A stretch of DNA of 64,000 bases. It comes from a virus. The translations under genes were made by a program, and so were the position numbers. Under the pieces are notes generated by a model that did no database searches, was not told the DNA's origin, and saw only the letters and a list, made by a program, of their open reading frames with translations. Positions within the stretch are counted from its first letter, which is position 1; each line of letters starts with the position of its first letter. The stretch spans positions 62,001 through 126,000 of IMG/VR virus record IMGVR_UViG_3300037086_000360; one strand, written 5' to 3'. Below, piece after piece: positions 3,602-61,425 of this stretch.

Positions 3602-3710
3602 AAAAGCGGCTGCCATCTTTTGGTTGTTGCTGAAACTCACCACCACCGTCTTTCTTCTTTCTCTGCTCTATCCTTTCTATCTTCTGATTAGGGCATATTT
3701 CAAAATATGA
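3576..3710 (+). CDS. Small single-segment membrane protein
   Basis: A 44-aa protein with a basic N-terminus and one hydrophobic segment at about 14-37. It overlaps the previous gene by 26 bases and the next by four. A GCATATTT box lies inside its 3' end. Function unknown. Confidence 0.6.
   Translation: MRPKLSGREKAAAIFWLLLKLTTTVFLLSLLYPFYLLIRAYFKI
3693..3700 (+). promoter_or_regulatory. GCATATTT box before 3707 gene
   Basis: GCATATTT begins 14 bases before ATG 3707, with no Shine-Dalgarno between. It lies inside the 3' end of the upstream gene, so chance is possible, but the spacing matches other sites. Confidence 0.45.
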
Positions 3711-4003
3711 GCGATGCTCAAGAAGCAAAAGATCTGCTCTCAAACAAACCGGATTCTGACATCAAATGGGGTGGTAGTTCTGGTTATCGTTCTGTCACCA
3801 TGGTGATTGTGAAGTATGGCCCAAGTTCAACAAAAAGAGATTTGAGAAAGATTCGCAGAAAGTTCAAATCATATGCAAAAGGCCAGACTAGCATTACCCT
3901 CTTTAAGAATGGTAAAAAGAGAGTCTTTATTTTTAAATCTCATAGTCTTGAAGAGTCTGAGGCCTCCCTGATTCAAAGCTATTATGATTGGGTAGTAAAA
4001 TGA
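3707..4003 (+). CDS. Tandem paralogue family, copy 1
   Basis: A 98-aa protein, first of four neighbouring paralogues. Each has an N-terminal E-A-K-D-L-L-like helix, a beta-rich middle and a C-terminal Y-x-W-V-V/I-K. Here the ends are S-D-A-Q-E-A-K-D-L-L and Y-Y-D-W-V-V-K. Translation is coupled to the next copy by an ATGA overlap. Function unknown. Confidence 0.85.
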   Translation: MSDAQEAKDLLSNKPDSDIKWGGSSGYRSVTMVIVKYGPSSTKRDLRKIRRKFKSYAKGQTSITLFKNGKKRVFIFKSHSLEESEASLIQSYYDWVVK

Positions 4004-4329
4004 ATAACAGCGCGATTGCTCAGGAAGCAGAAGATCTATTGGCGTCTAAGCAGAGTTCTTCTTTCGATACTTGGGATGAACCAAGCGGTCACAAAGCAGT
4101 CAAAATCATAGCTTCTGCTGGCACACCAACGATGCTTGGTCACAGATTGAGAACTCTAAAAAAAAGAATATTGAAATACCATCGCAGTTCATTTGGTTAT
4201 GATAAGCCTGATTTTTACATTCTCCGCTTCAAAAAGCCTGGCAAAGTAGTTTATGTTTTCAGAATGCATGAATGTGGAAACAGGGACGTCAATACTGCAA
4301 AAGATTTTTATGAGTGGGTGATAAAGTGA
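4000..4329 (+). CDS. Tandem paralogue family, copy 2
   Basis: A 109-aa paralogue of the previous gene with an E-A-E-D-L-L N-terminal motif and F-Y-E-W-V-I-K end. ATG 4000 overlaps the upstream stop, and GTG of the next copy overlaps its own stop, so all four copies are chained. Function unknown. Confidence 0.85.
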   Translation: MNNSAIAQEAEDLLASKQSSSFDTWDEPSGHKAVKIIASAGTPTMLGHRLRTLKKRILKYHRSSFGYDKPDFYILRFKKPGKVVYVFRMHECGNRDVNTAKDFYEWVIK

Positions 4330-4634
4330 AATCATCTGATGAACTCGCTCTAGAAGCAAAAGATTTGCTTGAAGGAAAAGAGAGAATCTTCTTCGATATT
4401 CAGCCATCTGGTGGCATGAAAGATCTCAAATTTTTCGTAGTTCTAGATAAGAGTTTTGATTTTGAGAAACAACTTGAGACATTTGTTGAGACCACGGGTA
4501 TTTGGAAAAGCAAGTTCGAAATAACCAAATATAAGAACCACAACGGCCAATCTGTGATCATGATCTACGCTAAAGATATTCCAAACACGATAGCAGATCA
4601 TGTAAAAGAGTTTTATGAATGGGTAGTGAAATAG
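4326..4634 (+). CDS. Tandem paralogue family, copy 3
   Basis: A 102-aa paralogue starting at GTG 4326, which overlaps the upstream TGA. L-E-A-K-D-L-L-E-G-K lies near the N-terminus and F-Y-E-W-V-V-K at the end. Copies align at the two ends while the middles have diverged. Confidence 0.83.
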   Translation: MKSSDELALEAKDLLEGKERIFFDIQPSGGMKDLKFFVVLDKSFDFEKQLETFVETTGIWKSKFEITKYKNHNGQSVIMIYAKDIPNTIADHVKEFYEWVVK

Positions 4635-4951
4635 AAGAAATTGATTTCGCTAAAGAAGCAAAGAAGCTGCTTGAGGGAGGAGATTCATATTTCGATTCTC
4701 ATCCAATGCGTGGTGCCCAACACAATGAACAATTTGTTAAAATGATCTTCATCACCCCGAAGCATTCAGTGCTTCCGAAGGAACTCAAAAAATTAATGAT
4801 ACTAATGGAGGGAGATGGTTTTCCTCACACAAAACTTCTTGAGTTCAAAAGAGACGATGGCAAAATAATGTATCACTTTACTGGTGCCATGCTTCATCAA
4901 GACGTTGTAGATTATGTAAAAGACTTCTATGATTGGGTGGTAAAAGAATGA
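4619..4951 (+). CDS. Tandem paralogue family, copy 4
   Basis: A 110-aa paralogue with A-K-E-A-K-K-L-L-E-G-G near the start and F-Y-D-W-V-V-K-E at the end. ATG 4619 lies 16 bases inside copy 3. The last copy of the array; the following gene is unrelated. Confidence 0.83.
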   Translation: MGSEIEEIDFAKEAKKLLEGGDSYFDSHPMRGAQHNEQFVKMIFITPKHSVLPKELKKLMILMEGDGFPHTKLLEFKRDDGKIMYHFTGAMLHQDVVDYVKDFYDWVVKE

Positions 4952-5445
4952 ATCCTCAAGTCATTGGTTTTAAAGATGGAATCACTCATTTTGTGATCAT
5001 TTCAGATGAGAATGGTCTGTGGATAGAGATTCTTCCACAGCACTATATTGAAAACAAGTTTTACAAATGCACGAAAAATGATGGTGATTGCCCTATTTGT
5101 ACGGCATATGAGAGAACTAAAGATCGACAATTTAGGCCATTCATAAGCTATTTGTTTCCAATCATCCATCTTGATACTAATGAAATCTGCGTGCTCAGAG
5201 CTGGAAAATGGTTCATGAATCAAATGATGGATAGGCAGATTCAATATAGAGAAATAGAGGTCTCAAAGGAACAAGATGCCAGGGCATCAGCATTTCCAGT
5301 TTTGAAATTGGTGAGCGTGGCGAAGAAGAAATACAAGGACACTAAGAAAGCCGAATTCAATCTCACAAACATTAGAATCTCATTGACTAGAGATATTGAT
5401 GATCCAGTCTATCCAATTATCGCAAAAGCGGCTCTTGGAACATGA
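4948..5445 (+). CDS. Zinc-binding protein, possibly gp32-like ssDNA binder
   Basis: A 165-aa protein with His 37, Cys 44, Cys 51 and Cys 54 (H-x6-C-x6-C-x2-C) inside a beta-rich context, followed by basic stretches. The His/Cys order recalls the zinc site of T4-type single-strand DNA-binding protein gp32, but the spacing and length differ and there is no clear acidic tail. Treat the DNA-binding idea as a guess. Overlaps the previous stop by four bases. Confidence 0.8.
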   Translation: MNPQVIGFKDGITHFVIISDENGLWIEILPQHYIENKFYKCTKNDGDCPICTAYERTKDRQFRPFISYLFPIIHLDTNEICVLRAGKWFMNQMMDRQIQYREIEVSKEQDARASAFPVLKLVSVAKKKYKDTKKAEFNLTNIRISLTRDIDDPVYPIIAKAALGT

Positions 5446-5630
5446 GTATTGAAGCCTATCTCGCAAAACATCTACTGCTTGGGGATCGTTGCGAGCAGTG
5501 TGAGCATCATTTCACTCTTCAGTCAGCAAAGATGTGGTGTGATTTTGAAGAAATACCTCCTAGAGGATGGTTCTGCAATCAATTTTATTATATTGACCAT
5601 CCTTTGAAATATAGATTCAACAGAGTCTAA
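5442..5630 (+). CDS. Cys-rich miniprotein with LAKHLLLG motif
   Basis: A 62-aa protein, first of a run of related miniproteins. It has an N-terminal L-A-K-H-L-L-L-G helix, then C-E-Q-C and two further Cys residues, suggesting a small metal site. It overlaps its neighbour by four bases. Function unknown. Confidence 0.8.
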   Translation: MSIEAYLAKHLLLGDRCEQCEHHFTLQSAKMWCDFEEIPPRGWFCNQFYYIDHPLKYRFNRV

Positions 5631-5631
5631 T

Positions 5632-5877
5632 ATGAATGAAGACATCCTAGCCAAAAATATGATGCTTGAAAAATCATGTTGGGAGTGTAAATATCGAGGA
5701 AGTGGTTTTAAGAATCGCTGGTGTTATTTAAATGAAAAGGAGCCGCTTGAAAACCTTTGTCAAGGTTTTGTCGATTTCCCAAAAGTAGAAATAACACTTC
5801 CGTTCTCTGGAAAGATTGTGACAGCAAGTGATACCCGCTTGTTTCCAATTGAAATGGATACAACCCAAATTAAATGA
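5632..5877 (+). CDS. Cys-rich miniprotein, paralogue
   Basis: An 81-aa relative of the previous gene: I-L-A-K-N-M-M-L near the start, C-W-E-C, then single Cys residues at similar spacing. The C-terminal third has no counterpart in the other copies. Confidence 0.8.
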   Translation: MNEDILAKNMMLEKSCWECKYRGSGFKNRWCYLNEKEPLENLCQGFVDFPKVEITLPFSGKIVTASDTRLFPIEMDTTQIK

Positions 5878-6105
5878 ATAAAGACACGATCGCTAAATAC
5901 TTACTGCTCGGTCATTCTTGTGAAAACTGTTTTCATCGACATGCTCCTTGCTCCTCTTCTTTACACATTGCATTGTGAAAAGATTTCACTCGAAGGTGTT
6001 TGCGAAAAGTATCACACCTATGAGATAAGTGTCGTTATGAAGAAGTCACGTCAGGTCAGTGTTTCTTCAATACTCAACATTCAAAAACTGCGCAGGGTCC
6101 AATGA
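5874..6105 (+). pseudogene. Cys-rich miniprotein copy broken by a frameshift
   Basis: ATG 5874 opens a typical family N-terminus (T-I-A-K-Y-L-L-L-G, C-E-N-C) but that frame stops at 5976-5978. The +1 frame then continues with I-S-L-E-G-V-C-E-K-Y, closely matching the intact copy at 6102, and stops at 6105. The two halves fit one protein split by a frameshift around 5945-5970. A programmed shift or sequencing error cannot be excluded. Confidence 0.65.
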
Positions 6106-6293
6106 ATGCTGATAAAATAGCTAAGATGCTAATGCTTGGAGAGGCCTGTGGCAATTGTGTTGAACATTGTAAAGATCTTCCCATAGAGGGAGTGTGTGAG
6201 AAATATGTTCCGGGTGACGACATCACAATGCTTCGCGAAGAACTGTTGAAGAATCTTGGAATACCAAAAGACTATCTATTTCCATCCAAATAA
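6102..6293 (+). CDS. Cys-rich miniprotein with IAKMLMLG motif
   Basis: A 63-aa intact family member: K-I-A-K-M-L-M-L-G, C-G-N-C, then E-H-C and G-V-C-E-K-Y. It is the reference for recognising the broken copy upstream. Probably binds a metal ion; function unknown. Confidence 0.82.
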   Translation: MNADKIAKMLMLGEACGNCVEHCKDLPIEGVCEKYVPGDDITMLREELLKNLGIPKDYLFPSK

Positions 6294-6311
6294 ACAAGAT
6301 AACTTTCACAA

Positions 6312-6319
6312 GCATATTT
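6312..6319 (+). promoter_or_regulatory. GCATATTT box before HNH gene
   Basis: GCATATTT lies 20 bases before ATG 6332. The intervening sequence is AT-rich and has no Shine-Dalgarno. Confidence 0.55.
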
Positions 6320-6331
6320 TATTATTACTTT

Positions 6332-7165
6332 ATGCATAAATGTGAAATCTGTGGAAAGGAGTTTGAGAAGGGGCAGTCCCTAGGCGCCCACAAAAACTCA
6401 CATAATCCAGAAACTAAAAGAAAAATGCATCCAATAACGACAATTCTTCTTGAAGTCAAGAAGATATGTCCGAAATGTGGAAAACCTTTTACTATAAAAA
6501 GAAGAATTAGAAAAGATGGTAATTACAGTTCTTCCAATGAAGGAGGCGTTTATTGCGGTCACATTTGTGCAAATGGTCAGCTTCATACAGAAGAATGGAA
6601 GAAACATATAAGTATTGGTATTAGTGGCGAACATAATCCTAGATATATTGATGGAAGAAGTAAGATTGAAAAACCAAAAAAAGTAACAAAAATCAAAGAA
6701 GTAAAAAAAATAAAAGTTGAAAGAAAACCCAAAGTAGAATACTTTTGTACTTCGTGCGGTAAAAAAATAAGTGGACCAACTAAAACAACAAAGTGTATTG
6801 TTTGTAGATATGAAAATACTGATAAGATGAGAAAGTATAGAAGTCAGTGTGCTTTCCAAATCAACGTGTTCAATTATCCAGAAGAGTTTGATTTAGATTT
6901 GATTGCAAAACATGGAATGTATTCAGCAAAAAACAAAGAAGATAATCCTAACGGGATTACTAGAGACCATATGATTTCTGTGAAATATGGATTTGATAAT
7001 CATATTCCACCCGAAATCGTCAGACACCCTGCGAATTGTAGATTGATTACACATATGGAAAACATGAAGAAGAATAGAAGATGCATACTTACAATCGAAC
7101 AGCTTTCTGAAAGGATAAAAAGCTGGGACGAGAAATATGCACCCATAGCCAAGTTGGTAAGGTAA
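6332..7165 (+). CDS. HNH homing endonuclease with zinc fingers
   Basis: A 277-aa free-standing endonuclease. Residues 3-24 form a C2H2 finger (C-E-I-C ... H-K-N-S-H), followed by C-P-K-C and C-A-N-G blocks, a Lys-rich linker, another C-x2-C pair near 136, and a C-terminal HNH-type nuclease with R-D-H-M near 210 and H-P-A-N-C-R-L near 230. Such enzymes cut intron-less alleles so that their own gene spreads. Its last 27 bases lie inside a tRNA-Cys gene. It is related to the 52093 gene in its nuclease and to the 40865 and 43294 genes in its N-terminal fingers. Confidence 0.87.
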   Translation: MHKCEICGKEFEKGQSLGAHKNSHNPETKRKMHPITTILLEVKKICPKCGKPFTIKRRIRKDGNYSSSNEGGVYCGHICANGQLHTEEWKKHISIGISGEHNPRYIDGRSKIEKPKKVTKIKEVKKIKVERKPKVEYFCTSCGKKISGPTKTTKCIVCRYENTDKMRKYRSQCAFQINVFNYPEEFDLDLIAKHGMYSAKNKEDNPNGITRDHMISVKYGFDNHIPPEIVRHPANCRLITHMENMKKNRRCILTIEQLSERIKSWDEKYAPIAKLVR

Positions 7166-7211
7166 CCGGCCGCAACCCGGTCAAGCGCAAGTTCGATCCT
7201 TGCTGGGTGCT
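7139..7211 (+). tRNA. tRNA-Cys (GCA), C33 variant
   Basis: Acceptor GCACCCA pairs with TGGGTGC, discriminator T as expected for Cys. The anticodon loop CCGCAAC gives GCA, but position 33 is C. It overlaps the endonuclease stop region by 27 bases. A second, normal tRNA-Cys follows nine bases later. Confidence 0.82.
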
Positions 7212-7220
7212 CAACTTCAT

Positions 7221-7292
7221 GCAACGTTGGTCGAGTGGCTTAAACACAAGTCTGCAAAACTTGTCACCCCGGTTCGATCCCGGGACGTTGCT
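7221..7292 (+). tRNA. tRNA-Cys (GCA)
   Basis: Acceptor GCAACGT pairs with ACGTTGC, discriminator T, anticodon loop CTGCAAA with normal T33, T-arm CCCGG/CCGGG. The next CDS starts two bases downstream. Confidence 0.92.
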
Positions 7293-7294
7293 TT

Positions 7295-7582
7295 ATGTCT
7301 TATAGAGGATGGTCCAAAGACAAGAAAACATGGAAATACGTCTTCAACATGAAGATAAGTGGATGTCCTGACTGTGGCGAGAGATGGCATCACAACTATT
7401 TCTCTTTCTACAAAAGAGCAGATCCAAACATGTTCCCCTATTTCAAGGGACCAGATGATCAGTTTGCTAAGTATCTTTTGACAGTTAAAAACAGACGACT
7501 CGTAGATTCTTGGGTCTATGAATGTCCAAAGTGTCACAAGCGAACTTATCATCTTCAGGATGAATGGGAGAAAGTTTTTTAA
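7295..7582 (+). CDS. Zinc-ribbon protein
   Basis: A 95-aa protein with C-P-D-C near residue 24 and C-P-K-C near residue 77, a two-knuckle arrangement typical of a zinc ribbon. It begins directly after tRNA-Cys and has no evident ribosome-binding site. Function unknown; small phage zinc ribbons are often nucleic-acid or polymerase binders. Confidence 0.75.
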   Translation: MSYRGWSKDKKTWKYVFNMKISGCPDCGERWHHNYFSFYKRADPNMFPYFKGPDDQFAKYLLTVKNRRLVDSWVYECPKCHKRTYHLQDEWEKVF

Positions 7583-7587
7583 GAGAA

Positions 7588-7595
7588 GCATACTT
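7588..7595 (+). promoter_or_regulatory. GCATACTT box before tRNA-Ser
   Basis: GCATACTT lies 22 bases upstream of the tRNA-Ser 5' end at 7610, in the short gap after the previous stop. Confidence 0.45.
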
Positions 7596-7609
7596 CTTTT
7601 TGAATGCTT

Positions 7610-7696
7610 GGAGGCATCGCATAGCGGTTGAGTGCGTCGGTCCTGAAAACCGAAATGGGCGCAAGTCCATCGGGGGTTCGAATCCCTCTGCCTCCG
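7610..7696 (+). tRNA. tRNA-Ser (TGA), C33 variant
   Basis: Class II: acceptor GGAGGCA pairs with TGCCTCC, discriminator G (Ser identity), long variable arm ATGGGC-GCAA-GTCCAT. The anticodon loop CCTGAAA gives TGA with C at position 33. Confidence 0.88.
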
Positions 7697-7699
7697 TAG

Positions 7700-7746
7700 A
7701 TCGTGGTCGTCAGTGCTTGTCCGTGCTCACACTGCCTTATCACGAT
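7700..7746 (+). ncRNA. Two-storey hairpin RNA element
   Basis: ATCGTG pairs with CACGAT, then after an internal loop CAGTG pairs with CACTG. It sits between tRNA-Ser and a terminator. It could be a stable 3' trailer structure or an independent small RNA. Confidence 0.4.
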
Positions 7747-7752
7747 TGAACC

Positions 7753-7791
7753 CCGGGGAATGTCTCGCGGAAGCTTTTCCCGGTTATTTTT
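7753..7791 (+). terminator. Likely intrinsic terminator
   Basis: CCGGGGAA pairs with TTCCCGG (one bulge) and is followed by TTATTTTT, ending the tRNA-Ser transcript before the next CDS. Confidence 0.65.
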
Positions 7792-7794
7792 GAA

Positions 7795-7992
7795 ATGAAT
7801 CACTACATCATTTGTAGAACATGTGGAAAGCACTTCATCCTTGATGAATCCAACAAGGATGGCAGGTGTTCTGATGAGTGTAAAAAAAGATACCGGGCAT
7901 GTTTAAACTGTGGAAAGTATTACATCGGAGAGCTCGAGTATTGTTCAAAGGAGTGTGGGATTCAATACAAATTTGAATCTCCGTATGCATGA
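7795..7992 (+). CDS. Double zinc-finger miniprotein
   Basis: A 65-aa protein with four Cys pairs: C-R-T-C, a C-S-D-E-C cluster, C-L-N-C and C-S-K-E-C. This suggests two tandem treble-clef or ribbon sites. No catalytic motif. Its stop is overlapped by the next start region. Confidence 0.78.
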   Translation: MNHYIICRTCGKHFILDESNKDGRCSDECKKRYRACLNCGKYYIGELEYCSKECGIQYKFESPYA

Positions 7993-8245
7993 CATGGATG
8001 CAAACAAGCTTGAGAAACTTAGACAATTACCCTACTCAATCAGACGTTGCTGTGGTTCTTGTTTGCACAACATGGGCTTCAAAGACACGTTCTGGACCAC
8101 ATGCTCAGTCAACGACTATGAACATTTGAAGCATACAGAAACTGGAAGACAGCTTTCGATCTATATGTTTGGTTGCTGTCCAAAGTTTTCGTGGAATCCA
8201 GATGTTAAAAACCTAGGAGTTTGGATAGAGTTCTTAGAGAAATGA
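7985..8245 (+). CDS. Cys-containing hypothetical protein
   Basis: An 86-aa protein whose start resembles the Cys-rich miniproteins at 5442-6293 (N-K-L-E-K-L, then C-C-G-S-C). ATG 7994 is an equally plausible start. Further Cys residues near 48 and 65-66 suggest a metal site. Function unknown. Confidence 0.72.
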   Translation: MHDMDANKLEKLRQLPYSIRRCCGSCLHNMGFKDTFWTTCSVNDYEHLKHTETGRQLSIYMFGCCPKFSWNPDVKNLGVWIEFLEK

Positions 8246-8248
8246 TTT

Positions 8249-8334
8249 GGAGCAATCGCATAGTTGGTCGAGTGCGTCCGCTTGGAAAGCGGATATGGGT
8301 CAAACCATCGGGGGTTCGAATCCCTCTTGCTCCG
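8249..8334 (+). tRNA. tRNA-Ser (GGA)
   Basis: Class II: acceptor GGAGCAA pairs with TTGCTCC, discriminator G, anticodon loop TTGGAAA with T33, variable arm ATGGGT-CAA-ACCAT. Confidence 0.92.
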
Positions 8335-8351
8335 TAATTTTAGGAGTAAAA

Positions 8352-8918
8352 ATGTTGGATAAAATCAAGCTATTAAGCCAATTGATTGCAGCCGATTGTT
8401 TAAAGTTTGGTCAGTTTCAACTGAAATCTGGTCAGATATCTCCTTACTATTTGGATTTACGCAAAATCATTTCAAAACCTTCTCTCTTAGTTCAAGTAGC
8501 AGAAGCATACATCATTCTTCTCAAACATTTGTCGTATGATTTGATAGCAGCCGTGCCACTAGCAGCTCTTCCAATTGCCACCGCAGTTTCTATCCATCTT
8601 AATGTTCCATTTGTATATCCAAGACTAGTAGCTAAAGAACATGGAACAGGTAATTCTATTGAAGGAAGTTTCAAGCCAGCTGATAAAGTTGTATTGCTCG
8701 ATGATGTCATCAGCACGGCTCGCAGTAAGCTGGAAGCAATAGAAGTTTTGAAAAAAGAGGGGCTCAACATTACAGATTTAGTAGTATTAATAGATAGAGA
8801 AAGTGGTGGGAGCGAGGAAATGGAGCGAAATGGTGTGCGTTGCCACAGTTATGCTAAGATTTCTGAGCTCTTGAGCTTATACAAAGAACTTTCCCAACAA
8901 ACATTTGACCGAAGGTGA
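8352..8918 (+). CDS. pyrE: Orotate phosphoribosyltransferase
   Basis: A 188-aa enzyme that joins orotate to PRPP to give orotidine 5'-phosphate in pyrimidine synthesis. Visible family features: Y-Y-L-D-L-R near residue 32, the flexible loop R-L-V-A-K-E-H-G (91-98) and the PRPP-binding motif V-L-L-D-D-V-I-S-T-A (114-123), which has A where many homologues have G. ATG 8352 follows TAGGAG; an upstream in-frame extension through tRNA-Ser is rejected. Phage copies would supply pyrimidines, in line with thymidylate synthase at the right edge. Other phosphoribosyltransferases are a less likely alternative. Confidence 0.88.
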   Translation: MLDKIKLLSQLIAADCLKFGQFQLKSGQISPYYLDLRKIISKPSLLVQVAEAYIILLKHLSYDLIAAVPLAALPIATAVSIHLNVPFVYPRLVAKEHGTGNSIEGSFKPADKVVLLDDVISTARSKLEAIEVLKKEGLNITDLVVLIDRESGGSEEMERNGVRCHSYAKISELLSLYKELSQQTFDRR

Positions 8919-8940
8919 GCCTCGTCCGAAAGATAATAGC

Positions 8941-9192: not shown

Positions 9193-9202
9193 GGAGCATG
9201 TA

Positions 9203-9683: not shown

Positions 9684-9685
9684 TT

Positions 9686-9777: not shown

Positions 9778-9790
9778 CTTCATTCACAAA

Positions 9791-9798
9791 GCATATTT
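9791..9798 (+). promoter_or_regulatory. GCATATTT box before 9807 gene
   Basis: GCATATTT begins 16 bases before ATG 9807; the gap is only A and T and holds no Shine-Dalgarno. Confidence 0.6.
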
Positions 9799-9806
9799 TT
9801 ATTTAT

Positions 9807-13915: not shown

Positions 13916-13923
13916 GCATATTT
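13916..13923 (+). promoter_or_regulatory. GCATATTT box before 13930 gene
   Basis: GCATATTT begins 14 bases before ATG 13930 and the gap CTTCGT has no Shine-Dalgarno. One of the clearest sites. Confidence 0.65.
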
Positions 13924-33546: not shown

Positions 33547-33554
33547 GCATACTT
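33547..33554 (+). promoter_or_regulatory. GCATACTT box before long structured RNA
   Basis: GCATACTT lies just after the previous stop and starts a 370-nt non-coding stretch that ends in a terminator. Confidence 0.55.
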
Positions 33555-36415: not shown

Positions 36416-36423
36416 AACTATGC
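36416..36423 (-). promoter_or_regulatory. GCATAGTT box on minus strand
   Basis: Read on the minus strand, GCATAGTT begins 14 bases before the ATG at 36409. The spacing equals plus-strand sites. Confidence 0.55.
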
Positions 36424-36455: not shown

Positions 36456-36463
36456 GCATATTT
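36456..36463 (+). promoter_or_regulatory. GCATATTT box before 36470 gene
   Basis: GCATATTT begins 14 bases before ATG 36470; no Shine-Dalgarno in between. Confidence 0.62.
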
Positions 36464-37023: not shown

Positions 37024-37051
37024 TAATGATATCATTTGAACCTCAAATGTA

Positions 37052-37071
37052 AGATAAAGCATATTTTATCT
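37052..37071 (+). promoter_or_regulatory. Inverted repeat containing GCATATTT before HNH gene
   Basis: AGATAAA and TTTATCT form an inverted repeat around the box GCATATTT (37059-37066), 24 bases before ATG 37083; GAGAGG gives a Shine-Dalgarno. It could be a promoter with an operator or a small hairpin. Confidence 0.5.
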
Positions 37072-40849: not shown

Positions 40850-40857
40850 GCATATTT
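40850..40857 (+). promoter_or_regulatory. GCATATTT box before 40865 endonuclease
   Basis: GCATATTT begins 15 bases before ATG 40865; no Shine-Dalgarno in between. Confidence 0.62.
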
Positions 40858-42107: not shown

Positions 42108-42115
42108 GCATATTT
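42108..42115 (+). promoter_or_regulatory. GCATATTT box before 42132 gene
   Basis: GCATATTT lies 24 bases before ATG 42132, which has GAAAGG as a Shine-Dalgarno. Confidence 0.55.
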
Positions 42116-42786: not shown

Positions 42787-42794
42787 GCATACTT
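42787..42794 (+). promoter_or_regulatory. GCATACTT box before 42802 gene
   Basis: GCATACTT begins 15 bases before ATG 42802; no Shine-Dalgarno in between. Confidence 0.58.
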
Positions 42795-46061: not shown

Positions 46062-46096
46062 ACAATTCTGCCGAGTTTCTGTAAGATAATAACATA

Positions 46097-47410: not shown

Positions 47411-47418
47411 GCATATTT
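47411..47418 (+). promoter_or_regulatory. GCATATTT box before inserted tRNA
   Basis: GCATATTT begins 18 bases before the tRNA 5' end at 47429, the same spacing as at two other tRNA genes. Confidence 0.62.
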
Positions 47419-47428
47419 ATTTTCGCAT

Positions 47429-47580
47429 TCTCCTGTAGTGTAGTTGGAAGCACTGGGCCACTAAAGGGGTAGACTATCACCTCCCGGAAGTACAACGGAA
47501 CAAGAGGTGGTGAGGACCAAACATACTCGGCACGTCTATCTGCTTGGCTCACAGAGTTGGTTCAAGCCCAGCCAGGAGAA
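47429..47580 (+). tRNA. tRNA with about 79-nt insertion in the anticodon loop
   Basis: Acceptor TCTCCTG pairs with CAGGAGA, D-arm GTG/CAC, anticodon stem GGGCC/GGCTC (47455-47459 and 47546-47550), five-base variable loop ACAGA and T-arm GTTGG/CCAGC are all canonical. But 86 bases replace the seven-base anticodon loop. The insert folds: GGGTAGAC/GTCTATCT, then CACCTC/GAGGTG, CCG/CGG and GAG/CTC. The amino acid cannot be assigned. It is shorter than any group I intron known to me. Confidence 0.72.
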
Positions 47581-47603
47581 TCTTTTTTTGAAGGAGAATA
47601 TGG

Positions 47604-47939: not shown

Positions 47940-47947
47940 GCATAATT
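47940..47947 (+). promoter_or_regulatory. GCATAATT box before tRNA-Asn cluster
   Basis: GCATAATT begins 18 bases before the first tRNA-Asn 5' end at 47958. Confidence 0.58.
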
Positions 47948-48633: not shown

Positions 48634-48641
48634 GCATATTT
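48634..48641 (+). promoter_or_regulatory. GCATATTT box before 48669 gene
   Basis: GCATATTT lies 35 bases before ATG 48669, which has a full AGGAGG. It is divergent from the minus-strand gene. Confidence 0.55.
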
Positions 48642-51008: not shown

Positions 51009-51253
51009 ATTTATCACCAACATCTAGAATACCTCTAAACGGAAAAATTAAATACCTCATAGTCAGCGAAGACACTCTCAAGATGATGTCTCTAGATTCA
51101 GAAGATGAGAATGATAAAATCTCTAGAGAAGCAAAAGCTCTTCTTATTAGTAGTAGTGCTATACTAGTAGGATACTTGGAAGGTATTCGAGTATTTTTAG
51201 ACCCAATGTCAGTTGGTCCTCATTATATGGTTTGTTGGACTAGAGAAGCATAA
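50984..51253 (+). CDS. REAKALL protein, copy 2
   Basis: An 89-aa paralogue: K-Y-L-I-V-S-E near 22, I-S-R-E-A-K-A-L-L-I near 46 and E-G-I-R-V-F-L-D near 66. ATG 50984 lies 25 bases inside copy 1. Confidence 0.78.
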   Translation: MQEKEIDLNLSPTSRIPLNGKIKYLIVSEDTLKMMSLDSEDENDKISREAKALLISSSAILVGYLEGIRVFLDPMSVGPHYMVCWTREA

Positions 51254-51264
51254 TTTATATAAAT

Positions 51265-52077: not shown

Positions 52078-52092
52078 TTTTATTTATAAAGT

Positions 52093-53848: not shown

Positions 53849-54097
53849 ATGTTCAACTTCAAAGAAATGTTCGAAAGGCTGCCGCCCACCACCGTTGCGA
53901 CTTTAGGAACCATTTGGTTCATCTTCGCATCGTTGGTGATGTTTGGATTCGTCGCCCTAGCCTATGCGGTTCACGCATCGCTTCCCTGGATCATTGCATC
54001 AGCCTTCTTTGCGTGCGCGCATGCAATCTTGGTTGTCATCCTTCTGAAGCACGTCTGGCGGATGAGAAAGATAATCACAGAAGGAGAACCCCAATGA
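53849..54097 (+). CDS. Two-segment membrane protein
   Basis: An 82-aa protein with segments at about 17-40 and 44-66. Higher-GC block. Function unknown. Confidence 0.8.
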   Translation: MFNFKEMFERLPPTTVATLGTIWFIFASLVMFGFVALAYAVHASLPWIIASAFFACAHAILVVILLKHVWRMRKIITEGEPQ

Positions 54098-54387: not shown

Positions 54388-54393
54388 GAGTCA

Positions 54394-55915: not shown

Positions 55916-55918
55916 AAG

Positions 55919-56464
55919 ATGAAGCTGATGAAGTGGGTGATTTTGTTTTCAGCTTTTGCTCTTCTCGTTGGGTGTTCTGCGGCTTATCGAGAAACCCATC
56001 GAACTCATAAAGTCCAACAGATCCCAGCAAACTTTCACACGAATGACTCTGTTTGGTGGCTCTGGCTGCTCTCTCAAGAGAACAGAAACAGCTACTACAG
56101 TGAAGCTTATTACTACGACCATCCATCTGCTCGGCCAAAGCCTGCCCCCAAGACTCTTGCAGAGGAGCGGGAGATAGAGTTTCCTGAAATCGTTCTTCCC
56201 GAAAAGACTCTTGCTGAAGAGGAAGAGACTGAAAACGCAAAGCCAGAAGTGGCGACTGAGAAAACTCTCGCAGAGGAAGAGCAGATAATGGAAGAACCTG
56301 CTGCTGATCCAGTAGAAACTATGGATGCTCCAGATGCTACCGCTACGGGAACTGATGAGGCTGCTTCGGGTGAGACAGGCGGAACAAGCGGTGGTGAAGC
56401 TGCTGGTGGAGAGGGAGATGGCGGAGCTGGTGGAGATGGTGGAGATGGTGGAGGAGGTGACTAA
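55919..56464 (+). CDS. Lipoprotein with KTLAEE repeats and Gly-rich tail
   Basis: A 181-aa protein with signal peptide and lipobox L-V-G-C near residue 19, an aromatic region (about 45-70), three K-T-L-A-E-E repeats and a Gly/Asp/Glu tail. Low-complexity tail suggests an extended surface or periplasmic linker. Coupled to the next membrane-protein gene. Confidence 0.85.
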   Translation: MKLMKWVILFSAFALLVGCSAAYRETHRTHKVQQIPANFHTNDSVWWLWLLSQENRNSYYSEAYYYDHPSARPKPAPKTLAEEREIEFPEIVLPEKTLAEEEETENAKPEVATEKTLAEEEQIMEEPAADPVETMDAPDATATGTDEAASGETGGTSGGEAAGGEGDGGAGGDGGDGGGGD

Positions 56465-56751
56465 TGGAAAAGGGTGGATGGATTGCAATCTTGGCCTTTA
56501 CGGCTGTTTGCATTGTGGCCCTCTTTTTTGGAATCAAGTGCCTTTTGCTGACGGCTGCTATCGATGTCATAACGGCTGATCAGGCTATTGGCTACACAAT
56601 GCACATCACTGTAGATGGTCAAGACACTTCGATCTGGTTCAAGACCAAAAAGATCGTTGTGAACAATGAGTTTGCTTTGGAAGATGGAAAGGGTTCTCTC
56701 TATACCCATCTTTCGAAGGGAGTCATTCTCGATATAAAGCCAATCCAGTAG
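56464..56751 (+). CDS. Single-segment membrane protein
   Basis: A 95-aa protein with one N-terminal segment (about 6-28) and a beta-rich exterior domain. Starts on the last base of the lipoprotein stop. Confidence 0.8.
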   Translation: MEKGGWIAILAFTAVCIVALFFGIKCLLLTAAIDVITADQAIGYTMHITVDGQDTSIWFKTKKIVVNNEFALEDGKGSLYTHLSKGVILDIKPIQ

Positions 56752-56753
56752 TC

Positions 56754-56761
56754 GCATACTT
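56754..56761 (+). promoter_or_regulatory. GCATACTT box before 56782 gene
   Basis: GCATACTT lies 28 bases before ATG 56782; AAGGAA gives a Shine-Dalgarno. Confidence 0.45.
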
Positions 56762-56781
56762 CTATAAAGAAGGAAACGAAG

Positions 56782-57339
56782 ATGAAGAAGAGAACTGAAG
56801 TAGAGGAGATTAGCCCGTTTCTCCAGATTCGAATGGTGCAAAGGGATTGGTCGGGCTACGATCCGAATCTACTCGAAAGAGCATGCAAGAGAGGATTGGA
56901 GCTCGAGCGAAGAGTCGAGCAATATGAAGATATTTCTCCAAAACATGGCCGTGAAAAGTTTTGGACGCATTGGGGAACATTCGCCGCAGCTTCCGGATAC
57001 ACCATCCTCCTCGCTGGGCTCGCATTTCTCATCTGTGTCTTCGTTGTATGGGGCGTGCGTTCCGACAAGTGGGAGAAGGGATATGCCGCTGGAAAGACTG
57101 AGATCCTTTCTAATGCAATCTCATTCGTCGAAGCCCAGTATCGCCACGTCGATCAAAGCCAAATCCGCTTGGAGTTTCCGAATGGAGTCGACTATCTCAA
57201 CAAGAGCAAGTGGGTAGAGGAACACTATGGTCATGAGTATCCCTGGCAGTTCCAAACAAGGGAGGAAGCCGCTAAGAAATATGACGACTTAGTGAAGAGT
57301 GGTGAAGCTTACAAGATTTTTATTTCACCCAAACAGTAG
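56782..57339 (+). CDS. Single-segment membrane protein
   Basis: A 185-aa protein with a central membrane segment (about 68-93) and charged domains on both sides. End of the higher-GC block. No family recognised. Confidence 0.8.
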   Translation: MKKRTEVEEISPFLQIRMVQRDWSGYDPNLLERACKRGLELERRVEQYEDISPKHGREKFWTHWGTFAAASGYTILLAGLAFLICVFVVWGVRSDKWEKGYAAGKTEILSNAISFVEAQYRHVDQSQIRLEFPNGVDYLNKSKWVEEHYGHEYPWQFQTREEAAKKYDDLVKSGEAYKIFISPKQ

Positions 57340-57340
57340 A

Positions 57341-57348
57341 GCATATTT
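57341..57348 (+). promoter_or_regulatory. GCATATTT box before tRNA at 57359
   Basis: GCATATTT begins 18 bases before the tRNA 5' end; same spacing as at 47411 and 47940. Confidence 0.65.
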
Positions 57349-57358
57349 TGATACAAAT

Positions 57359-57444
57359 GGGCTCGTCGCCAAGTTGGTAAGGCAGCGGCCTTTTAAGCCG
57401 CCAGATCCGCAAGGACGTCGCCGGTTCGAGTCCGGCCGAGCTCA
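57359..57444 (+). tRNA. Class II tRNA with Lys anticodon (TTT)
   Basis: Acceptor GGGCTCG pairs with CGAGCTC, discriminator A, anticodon loop CTTTTAA giving TTT. The 18-base variable arm ATCC-GCAA-GGA is a class II feature expected for Leu, Ser or Tyr, not Lys. The acceptor is the same as in the class I tRNA-Lys genes at 60507 and 62024. Confidence 0.82.
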
Positions 57445-57457
57445 ATAGGAGGAGAGT

Positions 57458-57655
57458 ATGGATGGAGCCAGAGTTATTTACGCGATAGGGAATGTGTTGA
57501 CTGATGCTGGCATTATTGCAGTGTCGATTTACCTTGCCTATCATACGGGCAACAGCAACTGGTTGTGGTTGCTCGCATTACTTCTTGTCACTGGTTGGCG
57601 GGTGGCTTCTACCAGTAAGAAAAAGGACGGAGAAAAGACGAATTCAAAGTCCTAG
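57458..57655 (+). CDS. Small membrane protein
   Basis: A 65-aa protein with two closely spaced hydrophobic segments (about 9-28 and 32-48) and a Lys-rich tail. AGGAGGAG precedes ATG. Confidence 0.78.
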   Translation: MDGARVIYAIGNVLTDAGIIAVSIYLAYHTGNSNWLWLLALLLVTGWRVASTSKKKDGEKTNSKS

Positions 57656-57663
57656 GAACAAAA

Positions 57664-57891
57664 ATGCAAGAGTGGGAAAAGGCAAGAGATCTTCTCACCA
57701 ACGTCTCTCCATATGAGATAAGAAAGAGAGAGTTTTTTGCTCAACAAAGTAGGGAGTTCCTTCTTTCTTGCATGAAAATTTTGCATCTCTATGGACAGTG
57801 TAATCTTAATGACGAGAATGGTGATTGGATGGAACTTACTGTTGAAGACATTCAACAAGAGTTTAAAAAAAGAAATAGCATGGGGCAGTAG
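57664..57891 (+). CDS. Hypothetical protein with EKARDLL start
   Basis: A 75-aa charged protein beginning Q-E-W-E-K-A-R-D-L-L, a variant of the A-K-x-L-L motif. Its stop codon lies within a 12-pair hairpin stem. Confidence 0.75.
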   Translation: MQEWEKARDLLTNVSPYEIRKREFFAQQSREFLLSCMKILHLYGQCNLNDENGDWMELTVEDIQQEFKKRNSMGQ

Positions 57892-57937
57892 TCTGCAAAG
57901 GATTCGGTCTCGCTAACTGAATTTTGACTGCTGCTCC
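57882..57937 (+). ncRNA. Long rod-like hairpin
   Basis: GGGGCAGTAGTC pairs fully with GACTGCTGCTCC (12 pairs, three G-T), then an internal loop, then ATTCGGT pairs with ACTGAAT around a seven-base loop. It covers a stop codon. It could be a 3' end stabiliser, an RNase III site or a small Ro60 ligand. Confidence 0.5.
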
Positions 57938-57960
57938 ACCATTTTTAGAAAGGTTCTGAT

Positions 57961-58161
57961 ATGGAACACGACGATGATGTTCTTGTTTTGACAATTGTGC
58001 TGATAGCGCTTGCGAGTATTTCTATCTTTGGAATTACGATAGCATTCCTCCAACTTACCGCGCCCACAGGGATTAAAATTGTGCTCGCTATAGTGAGTGT
58101 CATAACTGCTATTGTAGATGTCCGTTTTGCAAAACACATTTGGGCAATATACCATCACTAA
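57961..58161 (+). CDS. Two-segment membrane protein
   Basis: A 66-aa protein with an acidic start and segments at about 7-29 and 36-53. AGAAAGG precedes ATG. Function unknown. Confidence 0.78.
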   Translation: MEHDDDVLVLTIVLIALASISIFGITIAFLQLTAPTGIKIVLAIVSVITAIVDVRFAKHIWAIYHH

Positions 58162-58173
58162 GATATAATCTAA

Positions 58174-58521
58174 ATGAAGCCCAAGAAGAAACCCTTCCCT
58201 CAAAAAAAACGTCCGCGCAAGAAAAAGAAGTCACACAAACTTTTGGCGTGGCTCATTATTGTTCTTCTTGTTCTTCTCATTGGAATGAGTCTAGGATTCT
58301 TAGTTGTGCTTTCAAATATAGCAGATGATGGAACACTTAGTCCCTTTCTTCTATCATTGAAAAGTTTGTTTAGTAGTGTAACTCAATTGGATTTTGCCAC
58401 ATTCCTTCAAAAGGTCAAAGACTTTTTTCCAAAAGGATTTCCAGTTTTTCAGAGCATACTTACAACAATAGGAGGAGTACTAGGAATTGTTGTAATGAGC
58501 AGAAGTTTAAAAAAGAAATAG
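58174..58521 (+). CDS. Basic membrane protein
   Basis: A 115-aa protein: very basic first 22 residues (Lys/Pro/Arg), segment at about 24-47, a second at 90-108. An AAGATATAAT element precedes ATG by a few bases and there is no Shine-Dalgarno. No family recognised. Confidence 0.78.
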   Translation: MKPKKKPFPQKKRPRKKKKSHKLLAWLIIVLLVLLIGMSLGFLVVLSNIADDGTLSPFLLSLKSLFSSVTQLDFATFLQKVKDFFPKGFPVFQSILTTIGGVLGIVVMSRSLKKK

Positions 58522-58528
58522 ATTCATT

Positions 58529-58608
58529 GGGGTATATGCAAGCGGTCAAGCGACAAGTCTGATAAACTTGTGCCTTCGGGCAATGTGGGATCAACACCCA
58601 CTACCCCT
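58529..58608 (+). tRNA. Class II tRNA with Ile anticodon (GAT)
   Basis: Acceptor GGGGTA pairs with TACCCC (six pairs), anticodon loop CTGATAA giving GAT, variable arm TGCC-TTCG-GGCA, T-loop ATCAACA. A long variable arm is not expected on tRNA-Ile, and the acceptor and T-loop are also irregular. May be a diverged or special-purpose tRNA. Confidence 0.68.
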
Positions 58609-58613
58609 AAATC

Positions 58614-58687
58614 GCGGGATTAGCTCAGTTGGTTAGAGCGCCTGCCTCACACGCAGGAGATCGCTAGTTCGAATCTAGCATCTCGCA
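58614..58687 (+). tRNA. tRNA-Val (CAC)
   Basis: Acceptor GCGGGAT pairs with ATCTCGC, discriminator A, anticodon loop CTCACAC with T33, T-arm GCTAG/CTAGC. Confidence 0.93.
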
Positions 58688-58701
58688 ATCTGGAGAAGAA
58701 G

Positions 58702-58923
58702 ATGAATGTCAAAAAAGTGAAAATCGATTTTCACGATGTCAAGGATTTCCTTCCAGCCCAACATCGATGGTGTCTTTGCATAACAACTGATCTCAATACA
58801 AAAAAGAAAACCATTCGAACTGCCTATAATGATGATGGTTTTTGGGATACTAATTCTTCAAAAGCTGAAGGAATTGGAAATGTTTCTTACTGGGTCTATC
58901 CTGAAGAAATAGAAATTGATTGA
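58702..58923 (+). CDS. Hypothetical protein
   Basis: A 73-aa beta-rich protein with C-L-C near 24. GGAGAAG precedes ATG. No family recognised. Confidence 0.78.
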   Translation: MNVKKVKIDFHDVKDFLPAQHRWCLCITTDLNTKKKTIRTAYNDDGFWDTNSSKAEGIGNVSYWVYPEEIEID

Positions 58924-58944
58924 TCCCACCTCTAAGATAAGAAT

Positions 58945-59415
58945 ATGAAAATAGAAAAAACAATCGCACTTGTCGCACATGACAACTGCAAAAAAGACCT
59001 CATTGAGTGGGCCCGTTGGAATGCTAAGGCCCTTTTAGAATGTAACTTAGTTTGCACAGGAACTACTGGTAAATTGATCGACAGGGTGCTTACTGAAGAA
59101 ATGACTGAGGATCACCAATACCGCCGCGACATTACCATGTTGAAATCTGGACCAATTGGTGGAGATCAACAACTTGGATCAATGATAGTCGATGGCAAAA
59201 TAGATATCCTTATTTTCTTTTGGGATCCAATGGAACCACATCCACATGATGTTGATGTAAAAGCGCTTCTAAGAATAGCGGTGCTCTACAACATTCCTAC
59301 AGCATGCAATAGATCAACCGCAGATTTTGTCATTTCATCGAGCTTGATGGGTGAGGAATATGCTCCTGTGGTCAGAGACTACTCAGACCACATTGACAGA
59401 GAGGTAGTTCTCTAA
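58945..59415 (+). CDS. mgsA: Methylglyoxal synthase
   Basis: A 156-aa enzyme converting dihydroxyacetone phosphate to methylglyoxal and phosphate. A-L-V-A-H-D at 8-13, T-G-T-T-G-K at 38-43, S-G-P-I-G-G-D-Q-Q at 68-76, F-F-W-D-P at 91-95 and H-P-H-D-V-D-V at 99-105 match E. coli MgsA closely, including the catalytic Asp residues and His. Length fits. A TAAGATAAGA element lies just before ATG. Why a phage carries it is unclear; it could divert glycolysis or relieve sugar-phosphate stress when phosphate is short. Confidence 0.95.
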   Translation: MKIEKTIALVAHDNCKKDLIEWARWNAKALLECNLVCTGTTGKLIDRVLTEEMTEDHQYRRDITMLKSGPIGGDQQLGSMIVDGKIDILIFFWDPMEPHPHDVDVKALLRIAVLYNIPTACNRSTADFVISSSLMGEEYAPVVRDYSDHIDREVVL

Positions 59416-59416
59416 G

Positions 59417-59424
59417 GCATATTT
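59417..59424 (+). promoter_or_regulatory. GCATATTT box before NADAR gene
   Basis: GCATATTT begins 14 bases before ATG 59431. The whole 17 bases from the box to ATGAT are identical to those at 61418. Confidence 0.68.
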
Positions 59425-59430
59425 CTCTGT

Positions 59431-59859
59431 ATGATAGACAAGTTTGAAAAAAACAAAAGATTTCTCAGTAATTTCTGGGAGTGTGAAGTTTACTCTGTTT
59501 TCGATGATATAGTTTATAAGTCCGTTGAACACGCATTTCAAGCAGCTAAGACAAACATTAAAGAAGAAAAAGAAGCTATTAGAAACTGTACTACTCCTGG
59601 ACAAGCCAAAAGAATGGGTAAAATCGTGACCCTTCGTCCAGACTGGGAAGAAAATAAGTTGGTCTTTATGGAAAGCTTTGTGAGACAGAAGTTCATTACG
59701 CACCAAGAACTATTGGCTCTCCTTCTTGCAACAGGAAATGAAGAGCTCATCGAAGGAAATACTTGGGGAGATGTTTTCTGGGGAGTCTGTAATGGAATTG
59801 GTGAAAATCATCTCGGAAAAATTTTGATGAAAGTGAGAGATGTTCTTCGCTCCTCATAG
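59431..59859 (+). CDS. NADAR (YbiA-type) protein
   Basis: A 142-aa protein of the NADAR/DUF1768 superfamily. F-L-S-N-F-W-E-C at 11-18, V-E-H-A-F-Q-A-A-K near 32 and a C-terminal W-G-D-V-F-W-G-V-C-N-G-I-G-E-N are signature segments. Family members are N-glycosidases; some remove ADP-ribose from guanine bases, and a phage copy could counter ADP-ribosylating toxins (established for some members, inferred here). Start has no Shine-Dalgarno but a promoter-like box at 14 bases. Confidence 0.92.
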   Translation: MIDKFEKNKRFLSNFWECEVYSVFDDIVYKSVEHAFQAAKTNIKEEKEAIRNCTTPGQAKRMGKIVTLRPDWEENKLVFMESFVRQKFITHQELLALLLATGNEELIEGNTWGDVFWGVCNGIGENHLGKILMKVRDVLRSS

Positions 59860-59884
59860 CAAGATAATTAAAAGGAGAAAGTAA

Positions 59885-60076
59885 ATGGCCGACAATCTCA
59901 AAATCACTGTCAATGCTGCTGGCAATTTCATTAATGCTGGAGATCTTGCAATCCTTTTGCAAAATGTTCAATCAAAGCTGACTACAAAAGAGCAATATGA
60001 TACTTTTTTCGCAAATCTTCTCATTCAGTTGAAGAACATCCATGATCTCACTGCTCCTGAACCCACGGAGAAGTAG
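59885..60076 (+). CDS. Hypothetical protein
   Basis: A 63-aa protein with AAAGGAG and an upstream AAGATAAT element. No family recognised. Confidence 0.78.
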   Translation: MADNLKITVNAAGNFINAGDLAILLQNVQSKLTTKEQYDTFFANLLIQLKNIHDLTAPEPTEK

Positions 60077-60091
60077 TTTAGGAGTAATTGA

Positions 60092-60445
60092 ATGAAGTTC
60101 AATAAACTTGTAAATCAAATTGATGAAGCAAAGTCTTATTACGATAAGACTTGGCCAAAGTCAGACGCCCTTTATGGTCTGACCATCAATAGATTTCTTG
60201 CTGCCTGGGATGCCTCTTCACAAAAGAAGAAAATGGTGAAGAAATGGGGTCTCGATATAACAAGAAAAGATCTTTCAATGGATTTTTTCAATGACACTGC
60301 AGGTAATGATAGATATGAATTATCCACGGAATTGGACACCAAACCAGAGCGTGGTGGATATAAAGAAGAAGATCAGGTTTTTATCGAATTCACTTACAAG
60401 AACGGCATAATTAAGATTACAGATTGCCGCGTTGAAGGACACTAG
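60092..60445 (+). CDS. Hypothetical protein
   Basis: A 117-aa charged protein, TTAGGAG before ATG. Asp- and Lys-rich with a beta-rich end. No family recognised. Confidence 0.8.
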   Translation: MKFNKLVNQIDEAKSYYDKTWPKSDALYGLTINRFLAAWDASSQKKKMVKKWGLDITRKDLSMDFFNDTAGNDRYELSTELDTKPERGGYKEEDQVFIEFTYKNGIIKITDCRVEGH

Positions 60446-60463
60446 CCAAAAGGAGGCGAGACC

Positions 60464-60529
60464 ATGAGTAGATATAAACAGAGTCGAGTCCAGCATGCTT
60501 GCGCATGGGCTCGTAGCTCAACCCGGTAG
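60464..60529 (+). CDS. Possible 21-aa peptide running into tRNA-Lys
   Basis: ATG 60464 has AAAAGGAGG in ideal position and the frame ends in the D-arm of the tRNA. It could be a leader peptide or chance; there is no protein evidence. Confidence 0.3.
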   Translation: MSRYKQSRVQHACAWARSSTR

Positions 60530-60580
60530 AGTCACTGCCCTTTAAGCAGATGGTTGCAGGTTCAACTCCTGCCGAGCTCA
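60507..60580 (+). tRNA. tRNA-Lys (TTT), C33 variant
   Basis: Class I: acceptor GGGCTCG pairs with CGAGCTC, discriminator A, anticodon loop CCTTTAA giving TTT with C at position 33, T-arm GCAGG/CCTGC. A GCATGCTT box variant starts 14 bases upstream. Confidence 0.87.
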
Positions 60581-60635
60581 ATTTCTACAATAGGAACTGA
60601 TTTGAACGAACACAAGGAAACAACAATGAACGGTA

Positions 60636-61403
60636 ATGAGGAATACGGAGGTGAACCTCCAAGTAGTAAGCGGACTACTCCTGTATTTCGGTCTAGGAGT
60701 TTTGTCCGACTTATTGGTGACAGCCTACTATATCTTCGTAGGCAAACAATGGGCAACTCTAGCCTCATTACTATCGATACCGATAGCTTTACTAAACTTA
60801 TGGGTCATAGATAAAGTCCTTATCATAACTCCATCATGGGATATGGCAATCACTTATGCCATAGGAAATGCCATTGGATGTCTTGCGATCATGACACTTG
60901 CAAGAAAGCTGAGAGAGAAGAAACTGAAGATGCCTAGATTTAAGACAGAAGAAGAGTTTCTATCCCATGTCCTCGATAATCTACAACACATCATTTGGGG
61001 CAACCACATTGTTTCAATTGAAGGACAACATGTCTTTCTAGATTCTAAACAACTAAAGGTCAATTGGAAAAAAGATTCTCATTTACTAACACCAATGTTT
61101 GGAATCAACCCAGAGGACGAGTGGATCAAACTTCTCCAATTTGAATGTTGTGCTACTCTGCTAAATCAAGCTTATCCAGTTTTCATAAACGCTTTAAAAA
61201 AGTCTCTTCCATCAAAGGTGATAGGACCAGATACTCCATATAATTTAGGGGTGTCCTATCCATACTTCATCACCCTTGTTATGGATGACGAAAAGGTCTA
61301 TGTGCCAGGGCATCTCATTTGTGAGGCTGTCGATGCTGGACTGAATGGTGAGCCATTGATAGCGAAGATCTTTTTGAGTCAAGAAGGTCATCCAATACAA
61401 TAA
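60636..61403 (+). CDS. Membrane protein with soluble C-terminal domain
   Basis: A 255-aa protein. Residues 8-92 are hydrophobic with about three membrane segments, including A-I-G-N-A-I-G-C. A soluble alpha/beta domain follows (95-255). Start choice is uncertain: ATG 60626 is in another frame and GTG 60651 is directly behind GGAG. No family recognised with confidence. Confidence 0.78.
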   Translation: MRNTEVNLQVVSGLLLYFGLGVLSDLLVTAYYIFVGKQWATLASLLSIPIALLNLWVIDKVLIITPSWDMAITYAIGNAIGCLAIMTLARKLREKKLKMPRFKTEEEFLSHVLDNLQHIIWGNHIVSIEGQHVFLDSKQLKVNWKKDSHLLTPMFGINPEDEWIKLLQFECCATLLNQAYPVFINALKKSLPSKVIGPDTPYNLGVSYPYFITLVMDDEKVYVPGHLICEAVDAGLNGEPLIAKIFLSQEGHPIQ

Positions 61404-61417
61404 CATATCTATTGCAG

Positions 61418-61425
61418 GCATATTT
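61418..61425 (+). promoter_or_regulatory. GCATATTT box before 61432 gene
   Basis: GCATATTT begins 14 bases before ATG 61432; identical context to the NADAR box. Confidence 0.68.

Follow-up and report, generated by a model that had tools for sequence, protein, structure and literature searches.

Late promoters of bacteriophage T4 contain a single 8-bp element, placed roughly one helical turn before the transcription start, with an AT-rich segment after it; they show no -35 conservation and are read by the small region-2 sigma factor gp55 (PMC2988020). In Aeromonas phage Aeh1, positions -13/-12 read a/gC. In phage phiEco32, the sigma factor gp36, which lacks region-4 homology, uses single-element promoters (tAATGTAtA) with starts 6-8 bp downstream, in front of middle and late genes (PMC8948821). 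The giant phages phiKZ and AR9 also have short promoter motifs of their own, and the 5' untranslated regions of AR9 measure 26-491 nt (PMC5312081). Here, we focus on a 64,000-nt stretch of viral DNA (the window), positions 62001-126000 of the 250,111-bp linear IMG/VR virus record IMGVR_UViG_3300037086_000360, and on two short elements that recur there between genes, box1 (GCATATTT) and box2 (AAGATAA(T); AAGATAAT). On sequence evidence, box1 and box2 probably represent two single-element phage promoter classes with leaderless subsets, box1 being read by a phage sigma factor, sigma-A, on the host RNA polymerase. The promoter reading of an earlier note on this DNA is thus supported and would be widened to two classes in a large-phage lineage.

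The record was read in 13 stretches with a simple gene caller of our own, in which Shine-Dalgarno starts receive a small bonus. About 397 genes were called, 381 of them on the plus strand, along with 63 tRNAs. Since it codes for DnaB, primase, DNA polymerase, a gp32-like protein, DnaK, a TROVE protein and many host-like genes, the record belongs to a large phage; no close cultured relative was found here. Helicase and sigma probes recovered the related viral contigs G001 (179 kb), G002 (72 kb), G005 (31 kb), G006 (90 kb), G007 (131 kb) and G008 (189 kb), plus two small ones. TROVE as a probe yielded no relatives, nor did a tblastn search with sigma-A against 50,697 phage records. The relatives' records are incomplete, and the pooled tests below cover seven related phage records.

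Recurring boxes of the form GCATAYTT, as reported earlier, are real. The window holds 30 exact matches, 29 on the plus strand, compared with 4.24 +/- 1.95 in dinucleotide shuffles (largest 9), and the whole record holds 77 forward and 5 reverse (reversed-pattern control, 8 and 5). GCATATTT is the top over-represented 8-mer of the 250-kb record under a dinucleotide model, with 56 copies seen versus 4.9 expected on the plus strand and 3 on the minus strand. Its first five bases and last T are almost fixed; the tolerated variants are GCATANTT (sixth base free) and GCATATAT, and no other single change shows enrichment. Because refinement of the motif by expectation maximization was contaminated by Shine-Dalgarno sequence, variants were counted by exact match. 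In an alignment of 92 intergenic copies, A is preferred just before the 8-mer, positions 8-13 (first G = 0) are T-rich and the sequence is purine-rich from 14. The same alignment shows nearly no information upstream of box1, -35 included, and no sigma70 -35 element was seen at 16-18 bp upstream. With an RNA start at the first of the purine-rich positions, box1 would lie at about -14 to -7. Moreover, the boxes face the starts of adjacent genes on both strands (24 towards and 5 away in G001; 14 and 3 in G002).

Box2, which came from upstream k-mers in all well-sampled relatives, mostly has A or T in front of it and frequently T behind it, and it shows no -35 or extended -10 information. Both box2 and its association with late genes are new beyond the earlier note. 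Among the PHROG matches listed, genes downstream of box1 encode DNA polymerase, primase, dUTPase, exonucleases, UvsX, homing endonucleases and one head protease, and those downstream of box2 encode portal, tail tube, baseplate wedge, tape measure and minor head proteins, endolysins and peptidases; homing endonucleases follow box2 too. Because box1 stands before replication genes and tRNAs and box2 before virion and lysis genes, box1 is probably a middle-like and box2 a late promoter, as judged from gene function. Box class is kept between orthologues at 25-76% protein identity: in pairs that are not independent of each other, both members had box1 in 15 cases (7.9 expected) and box2 in 12 (2.7 expected), and 5 switched (9.3 expected). 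The DNA polymerase orthologues of two phages both have box1 at 25 bases.

In bacterial leaderless genes, for example in Mycobacterium, the -10 element is placed so that the transcription start site coincides with the ATG. This literature can be entered through PMC3160421 and PMC3898074. The boxes described here would resemble these genes in -10 placement and differ from them in being a phage's own promoter classes in an otherwise Shine-Dalgarno-rich genome. We define the offset as the distance from the first base of the box (G for box1, A for box2) to the ATG; pooled offset counts are independent of gene starts, and the intergenic boxes are defined by our own gene calls. An ATG lies at 14-16 in 12 of the 31 intergenic plus-strand box1 copies of the window, compared with 7.4% of intergenic positions (binomial p 1e-6). 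Among 206 boxes of the seven records, offsets 14, 15 and 16 occur 24, 15 and 11 times (about 5.5 per offset elsewhere), together 50 compared with 16.5 expected (p about 3e-11). ATGs at this near spacing also open longer open reading frames (ORFs) than those at other offsets (42/57 versus 143/326, p 4e-5). The nine boxes for which an ATG at 14-16 had been claimed were all confirmed at offsets 14, 15 or 16; one of them, at 21757, is GCATATAA, a putative variant of box1. The window contains the following box1 copies near an ATG:

3693-3700, plus strand: box1 GCATATTT, ATG 3707 (offset 14) opening ORF 3707-4003, leaderless spacing
9791-9798, plus strand: box1, ATG 9807 (offset 16), leaderless spacing
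13916-13923, plus strand: box1, ATG 13930 (offset 14), leaderless spacing
17847-17854, plus strand: box1 GCATAATT, ATG 17864 (offset 17)
21757-21764, plus strand: box1-like GCATATAA, ATG 21772 (offset 15), 371-aa ORF
36416-36423, minus strand: box1 GCATAGTT, ATG 36409 (offset 14), leaderless spacing
36456-36463, plus strand: box1, ATG 36470 (offset 14), leaderless spacing, back to back with the preceding minus-strand box
40850-40857, plus strand: box1, ATG 40865 (offset 15), HNH endonuclease-like gene
42787-42794, plus strand: box1 GCATACTT, ATG 42802 (offset 15), leaderless spacing
59417-59424, plus strand: box1, ATG 59431 (offset 14), leaderless spacing
61418-61425, plus strand: box1, ATG 61432 (offset 14), leaderless spacing

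The Shine-Dalgarno pattern follows the spacing. A looser score (match of at least 4 nt) gave weak contrasts between near boxes and controls, and the core GGAG/GAGG/AGGA was adopted after it. Of the genes with box1 at 13-17, 2 of 28 carry this core, compared with 65 of 73 of those with box1 at 22-46 and 276 of 542 of those with an upstream gap and no box, in line with the earlier statement that near boxes lack it. Box1 stands before the relatives' genes at like spacing, with the ATG at 14-15 without and at 24-45 with a Shine-Dalgarno sequence. Leaderless spacing is the property of a minority of box1 copies, and many lie at 22-46 from a start with a Shine-Dalgarno sequence. Copies with longer spacing in the window are:

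37059-37066, plus strand: box1, start 37083 (24 bases) with Shine-Dalgarno sequence; box2 at 37051
42108-42115, plus strand: box1, start 42132 (24 bases) with Shine-Dalgarno-like sequence
48634-48641, plus strand: box1, start 48669 (35 bases) with Shine-Dalgarno sequence
56754-56761, plus strand: box1 GCATACTT, start 56782 (28 bases) with Shine-Dalgarno-like sequence

Box2 behaves similarly at its own distance. An ATG at 11 from the first A was found in 33 of 213 sites, compared with 5.8 expected (p about 5e-15), and the Shine-Dalgarno core occurs in 1 of 31 genes at offsets 10-15 and in 68 of 77 at 22-46. ATGs at the near spacing of box2 open longer ORFs, with a weaker effect (23/33 versus 142/283, p 0.04). 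The spacing is less uniform in G007 and G008, where offsets 14 and 9 equal or exceed 11 in frequency. The window holds the following examples:

8930-8936, plus strand: box2 AAGATAA, ATG 8941 (offset 11), leaderless spacing of the second class
46083-46089, plus strand: box2 AAGATAA, ATG 46097 (offset 14)
54068-54074, plus strand: box2 AAGATAA, start 54094 (26 bases) with Shine-Dalgarno sequence
58934-58940, plus strand: box2 AAGATAA, ATG 58945 (offset 11), leaderless spacing
59861-59867, plus strand: box2 AAGATAA, start 59885 (24 bases) with Shine-Dalgarno sequence

Box1 also precedes many tRNAs. The exact 18 bases noted earlier for three of them do not hold in general, the distance to the nearest tRNA being mostly 14-26:

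2788-2795, plus strand: box1, 23 bases upstream of tRNA-Leu (2811)
7588-7595, plus strand: box1 GCATACTT, 21 bases upstream of tRNA-Ser (7609)
47411-47418, plus strand: box1, about 18 bases upstream of an interrupted tRNA (about 47428-47582)
47940-47947, plus strand: box1 GCATAATT, 18 bases upstream of tRNA-Asn (47958)
51248-51255, plus strand: box1 GCATAATT, 17 bases upstream of tRNA-Ala (51265)
57341-57348, plus strand: box1, 17-18 bases upstream of tRNA-Lys (57358/57359)

A phage sigma factor or RNA polymerase had been suggested as a check on the promoter reading; a gp55-like sigma factor was found, and no RNA polymerase beta or beta' genes were found in six incomplete records. The sigma-A gene lies outside the window, at record positions 4500-5129, and encodes a 209-aa protein with a Pfam Sigma70_r2 match over the cut-off and a PHROG late sigma match (1e-7). 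Confident matches of its predicted fold are sigma factors, including gp55 (7d7c_F) at probability 1.00. The sigma matches cover mainly region 2. Homologues of sigma-A are present in G001, G002, G005, G007 and G008, that is, in five of six relatives, and a second region-2 sigma family, sigma-B, is present in G001, G006 and G008. The sigma-A proteins of G007 and G008 resemble one another most and diverge from the others, and in these two records box1 reads ACATATAT rather than GCATANTT, with AAGATAA unchanged. Because the box1 consensus shifts with the sigma-A clade and box2 stays constant, this small sample of incomplete records suggests that sigma-A pairs with box1 and sigma-B with box2.

How far does this arrangement match described systems? 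The box1 sequence was not found described in the literature, and the earlier note had likewise not recognized it as a described phage promoter. Its architecture, however, matches the T4 late and phiEco32 promoters, and by analogy the boxes may work like both. With T4 late promoters they share the single element near -10, the lack of -35 conservation, the AT-rich downstream segment and the small region-2 sigma; sigma-A has the gp55-family features of small size, sigma region 2 and similarity to gp55 (weak in HHalign). The a/gC at -13/-12 of Aeh1 is also found in GCATATTT and ACATATAT. The T4 consensus, however, is TATAAATA, which is not enriched in the record under study, instead of GCATANTT or ACATATAT, and T4 late promoters drive virion genes, which by gene content box2 does precede, whereas box1 precedes replication genes and tRNAs. 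We do not class the boxes as T4 late promoters, given their different consensus and, in the case of box1, a different gene class. T4 also shows no leaderless spacing, unlike box1: in a 99-kb T4 control, 2 of 39 WATAAATA sites had an ATG at 13-15, with the main peak near 29-36. Furthermore, the T4 late system has the gp45 clamp as activator and gp33 as coactivator, and no match to the gp45 N-domain (PF02916) was found in the six incomplete records. The phiEco32 promoters resemble box1 in layout and in their single element and phage sigma, but have a sequence of their own and one sigma for one box, compared with two boxes and two sigma families here; PMC8948821 does not use the word leaderless. 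phiKZ and AR9 use phage multisubunit RNA polymerases, none of which was found here (incomplete records).

The interpretation of box1 as a phage -10-type element, with starts at or next to some ATGs, draws support from its orientation, the missing -35 element and the T-rich-then-purine profile, as well as from the ATG peak at 14-16, the Shine-Dalgarno loss only at that spacing, the tRNA boxes and the phage sigma. Sigma-A, a gp55 relative in which only region 2 is recognizable, would probably bind the host RNA polymerase and read box1, the sole sequence element, as a -10 without a -35, so that RNA starts about 6-8 bases after the box. An ATG at 14-16 from the first G would then yield an mRNA with 0-2 leader bases and leaderless translation, an ATG at 22-46 a short leader carrying the Shine-Dalgarno sequence, and a tRNA a short 5' leader. 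Box2 would work in the same manner upstream of virion and lysis genes. A broader proposal, to which we give slightly less than an even chance, is that two minimal region-2 sigmas run two gene programmes, each with its own 7-8-base box on host RNA polymerase, and that the distance between box and ATG sets leaderless versus Shine-Dalgarno translation.

Several points weigh against this interpretation. The 5' ends and leaderless mRNAs are predicted from spacing only, and the absence of Shine-Dalgarno sequences at near spacing is partly due to the box occupying that place. Sigma-A and gp55 are weakly homologous by HHalign (E 5e-4, probability 31%), the sigma-A fold search gave no match at E<=0.001, and the G006 fragment has box1, yet sigma-A was not found there. 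The split in gene classes is clear but not fully counted, as it rests on the best 25 of 60 and 25 of 37 PHROG families, and our p-values assume independence among sites and among orthologue pairs. Finally, no sigma-B was found in the studied record, though box2 occurs there, and recognition by a host sigma has some probability.

That sigma-B was not found there also speaks for an explanation in which the boxes are -10 elements for the host primary sigma, possibly aided by an activator from the phage, and other promoters are served by the phage sigmas. The -10 hexamers of sigma70 follow a TAnnnT rule, which (T/A)AAGAT in box2 fits if the ATG is +1. We consider this explanation unlikely on balance: GCATATTT makes a poor sigma70 -10, -35 or extended -10 information is missing, and the box1 consensus varies between phages along with the sigma-A clade. 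The fixed ATG distance, with no Shine-Dalgarno sequence at that distance, might instead point to a translation element (a non-Shine-Dalgarno ribosome-binding or 5' untranslated region signal) that is no promoter, which is very improbable given that the box also stands 14-26 bases before most of its tRNAs and that a Shine-Dalgarno sequence lies between box and start in 65 of 73 genes. Least credible is a motif for genome polarity, replication or packaging (like KOPS or Chi) whose strand bias, 77:5 in the record, mirrors gene direction, since the boxes are intergenic, keep a fixed spacing to the ATG and face adjacent gene starts where both strands are coding (24:5 and 14:3, as above).

Reading box1 and box2 as phage promoters offers, from sequence data only, a view of how genes are transcribed in an uncultured lineage of giant phages. 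The boxes mark start codons missed by ordinary gene callers, and putative sigma-box pairs that differ naturally between relatives are open to direct in vitro tests of minimal-sigma recognition and of phage leaderless translation. Box1 was also considered as a general jumbo-phage feature. Phage G, which has a 48%-identical TROVE protein, is not enriched (32 plus, 48 minus; control 20 and 23), and three huge-phage records show a weak excess at most; therefore, box1 is not general to jumbo phages.

Neither standard ARAGORN nor Rfam calls the tRNA claimed at 47429; ARAGORN calls a tRNA-Ser(gct) at window positions 47428-47582 (plus strand) only with an 81-nt anticodon-arm insertion, whose insertion point is uncertain and whose length is below that usual for a group I intron. 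CTA-anticodon tRNAs, possible amber suppressors, lie at record positions 193217-193290 and 193293-193367 and in G001 at 113615-113688, the latter with box1 GCATAGTT 17 bases upstream. They prompted us to consider amber recoding, which we rejected: the sequence past TAG is no more coding-like than that past TAA or TGA, and in these records TAG still appears to be a stop codon. Downstream of the box1 copy at 33547 (plus strand), about 450 nt (to 34000) hold no called gene, and positions 33561-33860 fold with z -3.6 versus shuffles, which makes this region a candidate structured phage RNA. Two further copies (20812, 21024) precede a stretch that has strong hairpins and no called gene (20812-21250, plus strand; z -1.7).

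Among the neighboring genes of the window are a DnaK-like phage protein (11154-13043, plus strand) and the TROVE/Ro RNA-binding protein (19126-20778, plus strand), which shares 48% identity with Bacillus phage G gp540. Pfam matches in record stretches L001-L003 and L007-L010 include the anti-defence proteins Tad6 (Thoeris inhibitor) and Apyc1 (anti-Pycsar), FtsH, histidine kinases with PAS domains and a gp32-like single-stranded DNA-binding protein.

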